A stretch of DNA of 21,174 bases, taken from positions 1 through 21,174 of IMG/VR virus record IMGVR_UViG_3300017527_000261. One strand, 5' to 3'. The translations under genes and the position numbers were made by a program. This DNA comes from a virus. Below, in pieces: positions 104 through 14,450 of this stretch (position 1 is the first letter of the stretch; every line of letters starts with the position of its first letter). The notes under the pieces were generated by a model. The model was given only the letters and a program-made list of their open reading frames with translations. It did not search any database and was not told the DNA's origin.

Positions 104-493
104 TTATGCCCCCATCCTTCTTTCCGCGGCGCACATCGCCTCGTACTCAGCATCTTCCTCTATGGACCGCTCAACTCGCTCATCATTGGCCCAAGGAACA
201 ACCCTTTTACCCTTGCACTCATAACAGGGAACGTCATAAGCACCATTCACATAATCCTCGAAAAACCCAGGATCTTCGGCAAACTCATCGCCAGAGATAC
301 CGTGAGCATCGATGGAAGGATTAACGTGGCTGCCTTTGCCATCACAGGTGGGGCATACCACATACTCAAACGGCACCCAAACCTCGACTCCATCAGCGTC
401 TTCAAACAGAGCCAGCATTTTTTTCTCGTCCAACCGTTTATACCATTTCGGCATATTGCCGGCCCGGACACGATGATCGAAATAATAGCCCAT
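104..493 (-). CDS. DnaJ-type zinc-knuckle phage protein
   Basis: This 129-residue protein has two CxxC knuckles of the DnaJ zinc-finger style: CPTCDGKG at residues 47-54 and CYECKGK at 90-96. An acidic stretch of about 40 residues separates them. Small proteins with this paired CxxCxGxG layout are common in the early regions of tailed phages and have no settled function; binding to protein or nucleic acid through one zinc ion is likely. The start is well supported by AAGGAG eight bases before the ATG on the minus strand. It is the first gene of a leftward unit driven from the promoter at 536-564. A longer plus-strand frame overlaps it but lacks these signals. Confidence 0.8.
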   Translation of the reverse strand: MGYYFDHRVRAGNMPKWYKRLDEKKMLALFEDADGVEVWVPFEYVVCPTCDGKGSHVNPSIDAHGISGDEFAEDPGFFEDYVNGAYDVPCYECKGKRVVPWANDERVERSIEEDAEYEAMCAAERRMGA

Positions 494-628: not shown

Positions 629-1279
629 ATGCGGAAGATTTCGGCATCGTATTGTTACGAAGCATCCGAGGAAATCATGATCGTAATGCCGTCAAATAAT
701 ACAAGTAAGGTTGTAAGGGAATTGTTTGATAAATATCCAGACAGAATCGCAATATTGAATAATCCTACAACAATAAAATATGCAGATATGCCAAATGCTT
801 ATGATAATGGTTGTTTTTTGAGATTTGACGAAACCCTATATTTTTTAGGATTGGAAAAAATAAGCAATCCAATGTTTGTAGTTTGTCCTGACGTTGTTGG
901 TTGCCACGACCGCACTCTTGCCCTCTGGCGCTATTATTATCCTAAAATAAAACAGTACAATTATCCGATTGCATTTGTGGCACAAAATGGATGTATTCCT
1001 GAAACTATACCGAAGGAATCTGATTGGATTTTTGTTGGTGGACTAGACCCTTGGAAAATGAATAATATAGAAAAGTTCGTAAACAATGGGAAACCCGTTC
1101 ACGTTGGCAGAGTTAATTCTTTAGCACGATTACAGCATTGTGAACGCCTTGGTGTTAAGTCGGTTGATGGTACTGGTTGGATGATGGCAAGAGATAAAAA
1201 ACACTATGATTTATTGGATTGGTTTTCAGGGAATTTTAAACAAAAATCATTATTTGAGGGAGAGAACTATGCCATGTAG
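629..1279 (+). CDS. dpdA: DpdA-like DNA 7-deazaguanine transglycosylase (TGT superfamily)
   Basis: The 216 residues carry, in order, the landmarks of the tRNA-guanine transglycosylase fold: an Asp loop VVCPDVVG (residues 84-91), FVAQNG (116-121, equivalent to the TGT VQGG loop), FVGGLD (135-140, equivalent to GGL), HVGRVNS (158-164) and SVDGTGW (178-184). Asp180 sits where TGT has its nucleophilic Asp in FDxxxPTR. Phage proteins of this short type are DpdA relatives that exchange guanine in DNA for preQ0 or another 7-deazaguanine, blocking host restriction. A preQ0-type transporter two genes downstream strengthens the DNA-modification reading over tRNA modification. The start is uncertain: ATG 629 lies almost on the predicted transcription start, while ATG 677 has GAGG five bases upstream and would give 200 residues. 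No preQ0-making enzymes are visible. Confidence 0.75.
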   Translation: MRKISASYCYEASEEIMIVMPSNNTSKVVRELFDKYPDRIAILNNPTTIKYADMPNAYDNGCFLRFDETLYFLGLEKISNPMFVVCPDVVGCHDRTLALWRYYYPKIKQYNYPIAFVAQNGCIPETIPKESDWIFVGGLDPWKMNNIEKFVNNGKPVHVGRVNSLARLQHCERLGVKSVDGTGWMMARDKKHYDLLDWFSGNFKQKSLFEGENYAM

Positions 1280-1505
1280 ACCGGATGAAAAATGCTGTTT
1301 TAGTTGTGAAAAATGGTTTGATATAAACAATGATTATGAACCTCATTATTATACCGAGCCGAGCAAACCTGAATTGTGCGATGTGTGTAATCAATATTCT
1401 TGTCCTCATTGTCATGCGTGTGGGTGTGAGTTGCCCGTTAAAACACTAAAAGCTGTTCATGCAATGGAAAAAACATACGAGAAATGGATAAAAAATAATG
1501 TTTAG
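1269..1505 (+). CDS. Cysteine-rich zinc-ribbon protein
   Basis: This 78-residue protein has ten cysteines (positions 3, 9, 10, 13, 37, 40, 45, 48, 51 and 53). They include CCFSC near the N-terminus and the dense run CDVC, then CPHC, HACGC. It should bind at least two zinc ions or a metal cluster. It starts inside the last codons of the dpdA-like gene and its end overlaps the transporter start by eight bases, so the three are almost certainly translated as one unit. GGGAGAG lies just upstream of the ATG. I do not recognise a family. Its position suggests a partner or regulator in base modification, but that is inference. Confidence 0.75.
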   Translation: MPCRPDEKCCFSCEKWFDINNDYEPHYYTEPSKPELCDVCNQYSCPHCHACGCELPVKTLKAVHAMEKTYEKWIKNNV

Positions 1506-1977
1506 TATTCTGGTTTTTTTACTGGCAATCGTGGCGGCGAACCTTAGTGTTGCATATTTCGGCCCTGTATCAACACCGTTCAACGCTTTTTTTCTGATTG
1601 GTTTGGATATTTCGTTGCGTGACCAAATTCACGAAAAATGGCATGGAAAGAACCTGGGTTCGAAGATGCTGGGCCTTATCTGTGCCGGTGCTATCATAAC
1701 ATATTTATTAAACCGTGGCGCCGGTATGATTTGTGTCGGATCGGTTATCGCATTTGCAGGAGCCTTGATTGTTGATGCGGTTATTTATCAAAAGCTATTA
1801 CACCGGAAAAAACTAATTAAAATGAACTGGTCGAATGTTGGGTCTGCGGCAACTGATTCGATTTTATTCCCGACAATAGCATTTGGGGTGTTTATGCCGT
1901 GGATAATCTTGGGGCAGTTTGTGGCAAAAGTGGCTGGTGGTGCATTGTGGGCATGGATTCTGACGAGGGGAAGATAA
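1498..1977 (+). CDS. VUT/YhhQ-family queuosine-precursor transporter
   Basis: The 159-residue membrane protein has five to six hydrophobic segments and the sequence features of the VUT (YhhQ) family. These are an N-terminal AANL stretch (13-16), a charged loop DISLRDQIHEKWHG with its Asp and Glu, and the late motif SNVGSAATDS followed by FPTIAFG (about 111-129). Members such as E. coli YhhQ import preQ0 and preQ1, the 7-deazaguanine precursors. Phage copies are known beside DpdA genes or 7-deazaguanine pathways. It overlaps the zinc-ribbon gene and completes a transport-plus-insertion cassette. It would act in the host inner membrane. It is somewhat shorter than the roughly 220-residue bacterial proteins, as phage members often are. 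The substrate is inferred from the family and neighbours. Confidence 0.8.
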   Translation: MFSILVFLLAIVAANLSVAYFGPVSTPFNAFFLIGLDISLRDQIHEKWHGKNLGSKMLGLICAGAIITYLLNRGAGMICVGSVIAFAGALIVDAVIYQKLLHRKKLIKMNWSNVGSAATDSILFPTIAFGVFMPWIILGQFVAKVAGGALWAWILTRGR

Positions 1978-3292: not shown

Positions 3293-3707
3293 GGAAAAAT
3301 TTACACCGCAAGAGGTGCTGGATTTGTTAGGTGATGGAACGACCTACTCGAAAAAAGAGATTGCAGATCGACTTGGGTGTTGTCCTGCCACGGTGACTAA
3401 TAAGATTAAAACACTCCGGCAGGATGGCGAGCCGATAATTCATAGTAACAACGGATTATCACTCATTCTTAATAAAGAGCAATTAGAGGATTTCGGTAAG
3501 GCAACTGAAACGAGGGATTTTGTCGAATGGACAACACAAATGATTTATGGAATTGTGAGGCTTGCTCAACCGATTAAAAGATACCTGCCAGATATGAAAA
3601 GAACTTTGCGCATTTCTTATACGCCTGATGAAAGGAAACAACTATTGAAAACTTGCGCAAAAATTACAGCATTATTGATTTATGCAAATGAACAGGATGA
3701 TTTTTAA
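3285..3707 (+). CDS. Winged-helix DNA-binding protein
   Basis: The 140 residues begin with a clear winged helix-turn-helix. YSKKEIADRLGCCPATVTNK (about 21-40) forms the helix-turn-helix and IIHSNNGLSLIL (51-62) the wing. The C-terminal half (75-137) is helical and has no motif I know; it may dimerise. GGAGG precedes the start, inside the end of the upstream gene. Position just before the primase suggests replication control or transcription of the early operon. Confidence 0.7.
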   Translation: MAKEKFTPQEVLDLLGDGTTYSKKEIADRLGCCPATVTNKIKTLRQDGEPIIHSNNGLSLILNKEQLEDFGKATETRDFVEWTTQMIYGIVRLAQPIKRYLPDMKRTLRISYTPDERKQLLKTCAKITALLIYANEQDDF

Positions 3708-3708
3708 A

Positions 3709-3798
3709 ATGAAAAAACCAAAATTTCACCCATCTTGGCGAAAGCATAAGCGTGTATTTTTATGTCCGTATCATCAAGAAAAAACGCTATCATGCTAA
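3709..3798 (+). CDS. 29-residue mini-ORF with DnaG-zinc-like motif
   Basis: This short frame starts one base after the previous stop. It ends in CPYHQEKTLSC, which matches the first half of the DnaG/CHC2 primase zinc motif (CPxHxEKTPS). The rest of the zinc domain is missing because stops follow directly. It lies just upstream of a primase-polymerase gene. It could be a remnant of a CHC2 domain, a real microprotein or chance. No good ribosome binding site is visible, so it is tentative. Confidence 0.3.
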   Translation: MKKPKFHPSWRKHKRVFLCPYHQEKTLSC

Positions 3799-3932
3799 AG
3801 CTAAATAAAATGAAACAAATTGGAAAACATATTTGTGAAATTCTAATCGATCTGATTATTAAAACGCCTTACTCAAAAGAAAAATCCCTGATGGTGGACA
3901 AGCTGTTGGTTCTAATGGAAAGAGATAAATAA
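3792..3932 (+). CDS. Small unknown protein before the primase
   Basis: This 46-residue frame (or 40 residues from the ATG at 3810) ends in TAATG, sharing one base with the primase start as in other gene pairs here. The protein is helical and amphipathic: ICEILIDLIIKT, then KSLMVDKLLVLMERDK. No good ribosome binding site is visible before either start. The coupling to the primase gene and the lack of any other use for this stretch support it. No family recognised. Confidence 0.45.
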   Translation: MLKLNKMKQIGKHICEILIDLIIKTPYSKEKSLMVDKLLVLMERDK

Positions 3933-6040
3933 TGGGAACACTCGAAGATGCCACGCTGGTTTATCTCGAAGAAGGAAAATCAATAATCCCTATCCGTAAT
4001 GGTTCAAAAAAGCCGCTACTCCCCTGGGAAAAATACCAAACACAAATAGCTACACCAGATGAAGTTGAGGGCTGGTTTAAAAAATGGCCGACCGCTCAAA
4101 TCGCTATGGTAACGGGACAGGTATCCGGCGTTGCCGTAATCGATGGCGACAGCAAGGCCGGTAATGCTTGGATAAAAGCCAACCTACCCCGAACCACAGT
4201 CTATCAAAAAACCCCAAACGGCGCCCATGTGTTTTATGCCACCAATGGTCGGCCAGTTAAAAACAAGGTTCGAATAGCTCCCGATGTCGATGTCCGGGGT
4301 GATGGCGGATATGTTTTAATTGCACCATCGAAACACCCATCCGGAAAAACATACGAGCTTGTATTCCCGGTTGAAGGATCCGGCTGGGAAGATCTCACAG
4401 AATTTCCATACGACAAACTCCCCCAGGCAGACAAAAAACCGATAAAATACGATCCAGTTGATGAGGGTGAGCGCAACATTACTACGGCGCGAATTGCCGG
4501 GAAACTCATAAAAGATGGTGCTGATTTTCAAGGAATGTTGGATTATCTGTTATTTCAAAACTCAAGATGCAACCCACCTCAGCCAGAGCAAGACGTTGAA
4601 AAAACTGCAAAATCTATCTGGAAGACGCATTTCGAGAATCATCCTTTCGACAAGCCCCTCAGCAATCCTCAGCAATCATCAGCAGCAATCAGCATATCCG
4701 ATAATACCTCAGCAGCTCCTCAGCAAATCCTCAGCAATCCCTCAGCAAATTCGGCAAAATCATCAGCACAACAGAAGCTATTTATTGAAATCAAAGAATA
4801 CTTAATAGAAAACCCAGGATTTATAACAAATAGAGACATTTGCTATCAATTTGACCTTAAAACAAGAACGGAGAAAAACCGCCTGTATAGAGCACTTAGC
4901 GACCTGAAATTACAGGGAATAGCGTCAAAAGTACCAGGCAAACCGGGCCATTGGCGCATAATTGATGCTCAGGCGGACCCGATTGATATGTTTTCAGAAT
5001 CCCCTAAATCTGTACCAATCCCTTTACCGCTGGGGCTTTCCGGCATGGTTAAGATCCATTCAAAAGACATAATTGTGGTCGCTGGAACCACAAATTCAGG
5101 TAAATCTAGTTTTTTAACGTCTGTGGGGTATATGGCCGGATTGCTGAGGGGCTGTCAGGGTCAAATACATATAGAAAAAGAAAATATATATATAGACACC
5201 ATAAAAAACGTCCTGGCCGACAAAACCATGGACTACAAATCCCCTATGGACCAAATCGTTTACATGAACTCCGAAAGCCCGGATGAATTAAAACGGAGAG
5301 TTCAATCTTATCCAATGGCCGAAATAGCCTTTAGTAAAATGATGGCCTATGAACGAATGAATAATTTTGCGGACCTAATTCAACCCAACGCCATTAATAT
5401 AATCGACTACATGGAAATCGTAAGAGATTTTCACGAAGTTGCTGGTTACATCTCGGAAATCTATCAAGCCCTGGACCAAGGCATCGCAATCATAGCCCTA
5501 CAAAAGAAATCAAACGAACAGTTTGCCCGGGGCGGTGAGTTTAGCGCAGAAAAGGCCAGGCTTTATATCACCTTGGAAAACAATGCCCCATTCGGGGGAA
5601 TCTGTCGCATTGGTAAAGCCAAAAGTTTTCCAGCCGGCAAGAACCCCAATGGCCTTGAGGTTGATTATAAAATATATGGTGGTTGGCGGATGGAACCAGT
5701 ATCAAAATGGAGATATGTCGGAGCCAAGGAACGCGCCAGGGCAAATAAACAATATGAAGCCAATCTATCGGCAGACAAAGAATATGCCTACGAATTTAAG
5801 TTAATGGACGGCACAACGGCTGGCTTAAATTACAAAGATCGCAACAAATGGGTAAAACAATTCCCGGATGCCGGCGTAGACAAACACCTGAAAAGTGTGT
5901 CCAGGGCGTCAGAGTTTGATCCGTGGATGACAAAAGGTAAATGGTTTCATCAATTATTAGGTAGTTTAAAGAAATTACAGAACGCGGCAACAACGCCGGT
6001 GCAGCAAAAAATAATCGATTTTGATAAACGAGGGGATTAA
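3932..6040 (+). CDS. Primase-polymerase / helicase fusion
   Basis: This 702-residue replication protein has several parts. Residues 1-150 form a Prim-Pol domain (bifunctional primase/polymerase N-terminal family) with the catalytic pair DGD (71-73), GAHVFY (97-102) and VDVRGDGGYV (119-128). A helical primase C-terminal segment follows at about 176-237. A Ser/Gln/Asn/Ala-rich linker (242-282) is encoded by the phased repeat array. A winged helix spans 283-345. From about 370 comes a RecA/DnaB-like ATPase with Walker A AGTTNSGKS (384-392) and Walker B INIIDY (488-493). It would prime synthesis and unwind DNA at the phage fork. About 28 extra residues (about 408-438) sit between Walker A and the next strand (VYMNSE). 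The ATPase could be a packaging or RecA-type enzyme, but fusion to Prim-Pol makes helicase likelier. Confidence 0.85.
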   Translation: MGTLEDATLVYLEEGKSIIPIRNGSKKPLLPWEKYQTQIATPDEVEGWFKKWPTAQIAMVTGQVSGVAVIDGDSKAGNAWIKANLPRTTVYQKTPNGAHVFYATNGRPVKNKVRIAPDVDVRGDGGYVLIAPSKHPSGKTYELVFPVEGSGWEDLTEFPYDKLPQADKKPIKYDPVDEGERNITTARIAGKLIKDGADFQGMLDYLLFQNSRCNPPQPEQDVEKTAKSIWKTHFENHPFDKPLSNPQQSSAAISISDNTSAAPQQILSNPSANSAKSSAQQKLFIEIKEYLIENPGFITNRDICYQFDLKTRTEKNRLYRALSDLKLQGIASKVPGKPGHWRIIDAQADPIDMFSESPKSVPIPLPLGLSGMVKIHSKDIIVVAGTTNSGKSSFLTSVGYMAGLLRGCQGQIHIEKENIYIDTIKNVLADKTMDYKSPMDQIVYMNSESPDELKRRVQSYPMAEIAFSKMMAYERMNNFADLIQPNAINIIDYMEIVRDFHEVAGYISEIYQALDQGIAIIALQKKSNEQFARGGEFSAEKARLYITLENNAPFGGICRIGKAKSFPAGKNPNGLEVDYKIYGGWRMEPVSKWRYVGAKERARANKQYEANLSADKEYAYEFKLMDGTTAGLNYKDRNKWVKQFPDAGVDKHLKSVSRASEFDPWMTKGKWFHQLLGSLKKLQNAATTPVQQKIIDFDKRGD
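4658..4770 (+). repeat. Phased iteron-like array, candidate replication origin
   Basis: Nine copies of (C/A)TCAGCA start at 4658, 4668, 4678, 4688, 4708, 4719, 4730, 4741 and 4762. The two missing slots hold degenerate units near 4698 and 4752. Spacing is therefore 10-11 bases throughout, about one helical turn. Ten and eleven are not multiples of three, so the encoded linker is not regularly periodic. The 60 bases starting near 4777 are about 75 percent A+T. Phage lambda has the same arrangement, iterons and an AT-rich segment inside its O gene. Slippage-expanded linker DNA is the alternative. Confidence 0.55.
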
Positions 6041-10199: not shown

Positions 10200-10417
10200 T
10201 TGAGATCCTCGCAACCACAGTTATAACCCTGGTGTGTGTTGCCGTGGGTTATTACATGGGCCGCAAGACGGTAATCATCGATGGAGCTGTTAAAGCGGCG
10301 CCCCCGGGCTGGGATCCTGGCCCGGCTGATGAGGCCGAAGGCGATTACATTGGTGACGAGATCCCCGAATACGGAATCACAGAGGGACGAACCCCAACGA
10401 TACAAGGACCACAATGA
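10196..10417 (+). CDS. Small membrane-anchored protein
   Basis: This 73-residue protein has one N-terminal membrane segment (about 4-21, including LATTVITLVCVAVGYYMG). A Pro/Gly/Asp/Glu-rich tail follows, with PPGWDPGPADEAEGD and GDEIPEYG. It overlaps TerL by four bases and the next gene by four. Short single-span proteins are common phage extras; a lysis role is possible but nothing specific shows it. The GDEIP motif also appears near the TerL C-terminus, probably by chance. Confidence 0.65.
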   Translation: MIEILATTVITLVCVAVGYYMGRKTVIIDGAVKAAPPGWDPGPADEAEGDYIGDEIPEYGITEGRTPTIQGPQ

Positions 10418-10875
10418 TTGTAGTTTGCCAAATATGCAAGATGGAGATAGCCGAAACATCCACAGACGAGCTATCTGTCCCGATAACAGGGTCTATGTTT
10501 CATCCTCACCGGGCCGGCTTCCCAGAGCCGTTCCCTGGTGGTCCGGACTGGATGTATATGCGTTGCCGGTATTGCCGGACAAGGCCGTTTTTGAGGGATG
10601 ACGAGGTTTTAACCACGGACGGGCTTATCGATGTCAACGAAGAAAAGCGGAAGGATCCGGCGTTATTAATTAACGTGTTAGAACCGATAACCGGCGATGG
10701 TGGCAGCGAGATTAGATTACCGCTTTCCCCCACGGATGATTTCATTTATTGCGATAAATGCAAGAAGCAATACCACAACACCCCAAAAGGATTACACTGG
10801 TATAACAAACACATAAAGGCGTGCAAAGATGAAGCTAAAATGGACGAAGATAGCAAGCAAGCTGCCGGCTGCTGA
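10414..10875 (+). CDS. Two-zinc-finger phage protein
   Basis: The 153-residue protein has CQIC at the start (5-8) paired with CRYC (51-54). A second set is CDKC (114-117) with H and C in HNTPKGLHWYNKHIKAC, giving a C2H2- or C2HC-like finger. The middle is acidic. It probably binds nucleic acid or a protein partner. It starts inside the end of the membrane gene (ATGA overlap) and its last 47 bases overlap the next gene in another frame. I do not recognise the family. Its place between terminase and portal suggests an accessory packaging or head-assembly gene. Confidence 0.7.
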   Translation: MIVVCQICKMEIAETSTDELSVPITGSMFHPHRAGFPEPFPGGPDWMYMRCRYCRTRPFLRDDEVLTTDGLIDVNEEKRKDPALLINVLEPITGDGGSEIRLPLSPTDDFIYCDKCKKQYHNTPKGLHWYNKHIKACKDEAKMDEDSKQAAGC

Positions 10876-14042: not shown

Positions 14043-14069
14043 TCGCTAAGTGAGAGGTTGTTGCCAATA

Positions 14070-14450
14070 ATGCCACTATACGATTACGAGTGCGAGTGCG
14101 GTGAGTTATTCGAGTCTATTGAATCACCGGAAGTAACTGAGCTTGAGTGTCATTGTGGCGCAATGGCTCAGAGGATTATATCATTCGGTGGTCAATATTG
14201 TGCCAATGAGGATGCCGATTGGATCAAGAGTGTCGTCGAAGTCGTAAATAAAAAAAGTGAGAACCCTTACACTCAGGAGTTTCTTAAACACCCTAATAGA
14301 ACGAATCTTCGGCGGCACTTATCTTCTAACGGGTTGAGGCACGCGGAGCCGGGCGAGAGTTTTGATCCGCCACCGGCGTTAAATATTGAGCGTCATGGGG
14401 ATCGGGTGTTTCGGGAGCGACAACGAAAAAACAGTCTTGAAGTGAGGTAA
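14070..14450 (+). CDS. FmdB-like zinc-ribbon protein
   Basis: From the ATG at 14070 the protein has 126 residues and opens MPLYDYECECGELFES, the signature start of FmdB-type zinc ribbons. The second pair is CHCG (27-30). Both pairs are CxC rather than the usual CxxC. The C-terminal part (about 60-126) is basic and includes TNLRRHLSSNG and a final RERQRKNSLEVR. Upstream in-frame TTG codons (14058, 14061) are possible but the family start favours the ATG. GAGAGG lies 12 bases upstream, rather far. Phage versions are common near structural genes, function unknown. Confidence 0.75.
   Translation: MPLYDYECECGELFESIESPEVTELECHCGAMAQRIISFGGQYCANEDADWIKSVVEVVNKKSENPYTQEFLKHPNRTNLRRHLSSNGLRHAEPGESFDPPPALNIERHGDRVFRERQRKNSLEVR

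Follow-up and report, generated by a model that had tools for sequence, protein, structure and literature searches.

A short DpdA-like transglycosylase beside a YhhQ-type transporter: a predicted 7-deazaguanine salvage module in a tailed phage fragment

Insertion of 7-deazaguanine into DNA by the transglycosylase DpdA, with protection from restriction as the outcome, has been established for phage CAjan (PMC6884629). Import of the base by phages has also been proposed: a preQ0/preQ1 transporter of the Vut_1 family, carried by Pantoea phage Vid5, was suggested in 2018 to salvage preQ0 (PMC6266253), and salvage was proposed again in 2019 (PMC6884629). YhhQ is involved in preQ0 transport (PMC5372724), and its homologues in phages showed no correlation with a specific phage group in the study of Hutinet et al. 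(PMC6884629).

The locus described here lies on the + strand near the left end of the window, by which is meant the whole stretch analysed, the complete 21,174-base linear viral record IMGVR_UViG_3300017527_000261. Since it encodes a P22-like portal (PF16510), a terminase and a major head protein, the window is a fragment of a tailed phage, which was probably podovirus-like. An earlier note on this DNA had placed an overlapping three-gene unit of transglycosylase, zinc-ribbon protein and transporter at 629-1977, and three overlapping same-strand ORFs were indeed present, the first two sharing 11 bp and the last two 8 bp, with small corrections needed to the gene starts. The first gene was confirmed but its start at 629 was not: the transglycosylase probably begins at ATG 677 (677-1279, +; 200 aa), since this codon is preceded by a well-spaced GAGGA, relatives of the short DpdA start at MxVMPSNN, corresponding to the same ATG, and the AlphaFold model shows disorder over residues 1-13 of the longer form. 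The mechanical ORF of the Cys-rich, zinc-ribbon-like protein opens at 1206, but the evidence favours ATG 1269, with GAGGGAGAG and its own ribosome-binding site, as the start, giving a 78-aa protein with 10 Cys (1269-1505, +) whose gene overlaps both neighbours. The transporter gene (1498-1977, +; 159 aa) is followed in the same transcription unit by a 67-aa ORF (1999-2202, +) with only weak helix-turn-helix-like matches. Further on, between two ORFs (2280-2356, +), lies a 17-bp stem, almost perfectly paired, with a hairpin inside it and a T run after it. It folds at -46.6 kcal/mol (z-score -6.65, no shuffle as good) and is probably the terminator of the 629-2202 unit or possibly, alternatively, a small RNA. 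A search of the initial 3 kb of the window with Rfam revealed no preQ1 riboswitch.

The protein encoded at 1498-1977 matched Pfam Vut_1 (PF02592) at E 9e-8 with a score exceeding the gathering cut-off, in agreement with the VUT/YhhQ-type transporter that had been recognised there earlier. Alignment of the transporter family profile to E. coli YhhQ gave an hhalign E of 3e-6, the several hydrophobic spans within 159 aa are those of a multi-span membrane protein of the QPTR/COG1738 kind, and the protein shares 51% identity with the VUT of Pectobacterium phage PEAT2; NCBIfam TIGR00697 gave no match to the window transporter itself. We assign it to the Vut_1/COG1738 (YhhQ-type) queuosine-precursor transporters, with transport of preQ0/preQ1 predicted from the sequence.

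Sequence searches alone placed the transglycosylase only weakly: no Pfam match was obtained, PDB sequence searches returned chance matches only, and the protein matched PHROG 15826 (E 9e-27), a family annotated as 'unknown function'. As searching viral contigs with the three proteins one at a time gave no matches, alignments were needed, and the AlphaFold (AF2) model was based on one of 56 sequences, namely the window protein and 55 viral relatives. The model (pLDDT 87.5, pTM 0.85) has a TGT-type TIM-barrel fold: in a Foldseek search of the PDB all 50 of the 50 matches listed were tRNA-guanine transglycosylases (best E 5e-6, TM about 0.5-0.58 by query length), and viral matches include annotated queuine tRNA-ribosyltransferases. 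Structure prediction of 629-1279 had been suggested earlier as a check, with a failure to match the TGT fold as grounds for abandoning the reading; since every PDB match listed is a TGT, those grounds do not exist.

The landmarks D59NG, PD88, AQ119NG, VGG138, HVG160RVN and D180G follow one another in the same order as in E. coli TGT, as the earlier note had observed, and their counterparts there, assigned by motif order and not by superposition, are D89, D143, Q187, GG214, G246 and D264. All six are near-invariant across the 56 relatives (D88, Q119, G137-G138 and D180 without exception, D59 in 55) and lie at the ends of successive strands in the model, and together they supply the catalytic Asp, the second Asp and the base-pocket Asp/Gln/Gly-Gly of the TGT/DpdA superfamily. 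The C-terminal zinc site of true TGTs, CxCxxC...H, is absent, the protein ending 36 residues past D180 with no Cys after that residue; as this subdomain is missing, nucleic-acid recognition by the short DpdA is unexplained. Direct profile comparison of the short family with E. coli TGT was not significant, and the predicted link to TGT rests on the structure model and on intermediate families. PHROG 887 ('queuine tRNA-ribosyltransferase') was matched by 20 of the 56 relatives (best E 1e-7), and profile homology to the longer, transporter-linked DpdA family was detected at E 3e-8. As regards the named subfamilies DpdA1 and DpdA2, the links observed were those to PHROG 15826 and, at the profile level, to the VUT-linked DpdA and PHROG 887; the short family may already be named in published work.

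Phages 9g, CAjan and Seuratvirus share with the system proposed for the window an enzyme of the TGT superfamily and DNA that carries 7-deazaguanine, but they make preQ0 themselves and their DpdA is larger, with a weak profile relation to the short one. The Vid5 transporter, also phage-borne, differs from that of the window in sitting within a biosynthesis cluster. Closer in arrangement are PEAT2, the Acinetobacter phage AB3P2 and their relatives, where the VUT gene likewise overlaps or adjoins a DpdA-family gene and where QueC, QueD and FolE were not found; their DpdA, however, is of the longer family (about 245-275 aa), related to the window protein at the profile level only, the gene order varies, and no zinc-ribbon ORF lies between the genes. 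A short DpdA (about 30% identity) overlapping a PF02592 transporter gene is found in the complete actinophages GreaseLightnin (Mycobacterium) and ReqiPine5 (Rhodococcus), in which, unlike in the window, the transporter precedes the enzyme and there is no zinc ribbon; QueC, QueD and FolE were not found in either phage, and their VUT genes are annotated just as hypothetical or membrane proteins. The closest short DpdA found (about 55%) is that of the IMG/VR contig L016, with a transporter directly downstream in the same order. Nevertheless, tblastn with a cut-off of 1e-3 did not match the L016 VUT to that of the window, no zinc ribbon separates the genes, and otherwise only a primase is common to the two.

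Among the window proteins scanned with Pfam, no relatives of QueC, QueD, FolE or QueE were detected, in line with the earlier statement that preQ0-synthesis genes are not visible; this holds for the window but does not carry over to the whole phage, about which a 21-kb fragment is uninformative. The linkage of the short DpdA to such genes was instead assessed in IMG/VR records fetched by the short DpdA alone and then tested for QueD, which scored above the cut-off in 14 of 41 records compared to none of 50 viral contigs taken at random. When the neighbourhoods of 87 loci were clustered, many of these loci being related so that the counts are not independent events, a QueD cluster appeared in 26 (median gap 34 bp) and a QueC-like cluster, overlapping upstream, in 18. 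One representative QueD passes the NCBIfam equivalog cut-off, and the representative QueC-like protein matches TIGR00364 below its cut-off. Like phage DpdA, the short family is thus linked genetically to genes for making or importing preQ0.

When the scan started from the transporter, 50 of the 56 non-redundant VUT loci of phages had a DpdA-family gene directly adjacent, at most 300 bp away and on the same strand, belonging to the longer family in 44 and to the short family in 6, which suggests a strong DpdA association among the phage VUT relatives of this clade. One VUT, in mEp021, has no recognisable DpdA neighbour. Mutual exclusivity of transporter and synthesis genes was also considered and dropped, the cases being too few and Hafnia phage yong3 having both. 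The short DpdA recurs in actinophages, uncultured phages and bacterial genome contigs, and the pair itself was present in six of the latter (Rhizobium, Saccharibacteria, Chloroflexia twice, Nocardia and Dactylosporangium). The window dpdA is closest to that of L016, while the window VUT is closest to those of phages with the other DpdA family; the pair therefore looks repeatedly assembled, which speaks for joint function. The functional link between transglycosylase and transporter proposed in the earlier note thus gains support from its recurrence across many phages.

We propose that dpdA and the transporter gene would act as a salvage-and-insert module. Through the transporter the infected cell would take up a 7-deazaguanine base, in all likelihood preQ0 (or preQ1), and the short DpdA would put this base in place of guanine in the phage DNA, using the base-exchange mechanism of TGT, with D180 as the putative nucleophile and D59 as the second catalytic Asp; DNA modified in this way would resist host restriction. 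The computed results bearing on this proposal are the fold, the catalytic landmarks, the transporter family, the DpdA-VUT linkage and the linkage of the short DpdA to preQ0-synthesis genes, and from these we infer DNA rather than RNA as the substrate, the identity of the base and the protection. Taken together, we consider salvage of a 7-deazaguanine base that shields the phage DNA to be quite probable. Besides the missing zinc subdomain and the non-significant comparison with E. coli TGT, observations on other phages run counter to it. Phage Orion, which has DpdA only, had no modification (PMC6884629), and the Arthrobacter phage Sonali (L006) and the Vibrio phage R29Z (L007) carry a short relative together with preQ0-synthesis genes, Sonali having a second annotated transglycosylase as well, so that the task of the short protein may be another one. 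As a separate observation, the coexistence in Sonali and R29Z hints at a division of labour.

That all listed fold matches are tRNA-guanine transglycosylases could also mean that the pair modifies host or phage tRNA, the transporter feeding a queuosine precursor to a short enzyme that alters tRNA decoding during infection. The normal role of VUT proteins is to serve tRNA queuosine, and fusions of VUT with TGT occur in bacteria (PMC11130926), but the C-terminal zinc subdomain of TGT is missing from the short enzyme, DNA is the substrate of those phage superfamily members that have been assayed to date, and queuosine requires QueA/QueG-type steps that were not found in phages (PMC6884629). We regard the tRNA reading as unlikely. 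Slightly less credible is a role for the short DpdA as an accessory relative of changed specificity (a sequence-context selector, a base remover or a non-exchanging binder), with the transporter serving another enzyme. The gene content of Sonali would fit this, as would the Escherichia phage SHIN8, whose copy of the short DpdA is divided between two frames, with an intact annotated transglycosylase alongside; against it, the active-site residues are invariant, and in the window, L016, GreaseLightnin and ReqiPine5 the pair was not seen to have another transglycosylase next to it.

No relatives of the 78-aa zinc-ribbon-like protein were detected in any search, it was absent, both between the genes and nearby, from all 16 of the other short-DpdA-transporter pairs examined, and its AF2 model taken alone was uninformative (pLDDT 56). 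Only unrelated HNH-like Cys-rich ORFs, further from the pair, were seen in L016 and in contig L094. The earlier inclusion of the zinc ribbon in the cassette is accordingly not supported, and on present evidence the protein is best treated as an orphan passenger and not as a cassette component. It could still be imagined as a working third part that provides in trans the metal- or nucleic-acid-binding portion which the short enzyme, having no zinc subdomain, is missing: its gene overlaps dpdA, and the two are alike in their low G+C (0.359 and 0.358; GC3 0.28 and 0.30) next to 0.438 for the transporter gene, as though acquired together. However, non-cassette genes nearby, around 3400-4000, can be as A+T-rich (G+C 0.335-0.36), and with 16 other pairs managing without it and no relative anywhere searched, we consider such a function very improbable. 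Least credible of all is an importer-fed split DNA transglycosylase, in which the separate zinc ribbon would replace the C-terminal zinc domain of a barrel-only DpdA. Three more Cys-rich zinc-finger-like proteins are encoded in the window at 104-493 (-), 10414-10875 (+) and 14058-14450 (+), in order DnaJ-like, BED/PHD-like and FmdB-like; in such a phage a zinc ribbon close to dpdA is nothing out of the ordinary.

Of the interpretation given in the earlier note, the TGT fold, the transporter and the link between them were thus retained and the zinc ribbon was not; the status of a distinct variant is weakened. The latter suffers from the two-gene dpdA-VUT module being the usual setting of these phage transporters, and since salvage had been proposed in 2018 and 2019 and the pairing occurs in GenBank records such as that of PEAT2, the module is not new. 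What is less familiar is the partner, the short DpdA of PHROG 15826 without a zinc domain, an uncommon version of a widespread pairing. As judged from sequence and model, the window pair is a real and functional-looking salvage module with an orphan extra gene, for which DNA modification is predicted. A family of 'unknown function' with over 500 IMG/VR loci, PHROG 15826, thereby becomes tied to 7-deazaguanine chemistry. The cultured mycobacteriophages with the pair, whose host was reported to be without the whole queuosine pathway (PMC6884629), are candidates for clean tests of import-dependent DNA modification; if their DNA were modified only when the base is supplied, protection of the phage would hang on a compound scavenged from the environment.

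Several further arrangements of short-DpdA genes were seen. Genomes of Burkholderiaceae (L220-L289, mainly Caballeronia and Paraburkholderia) often contain distant relatives, and neither a transporter nor QueD was found near them in these contigs. In SHIN8 (L009:3750-4342), and also in phiG7, the second short-DpdA relative occupies two overlapping frames, with preQ0 genes as well as the intact transglycosylase beside it in SHIN8, and it is either a decayed gene or a frameshifted product. Finally, two contigs have PAPS-reductase-family genes on the downstream side of the VUT-short-DpdA pair (L014:4589-5506 and L094:3698-4519), with a ParB-like gene in between in L094.
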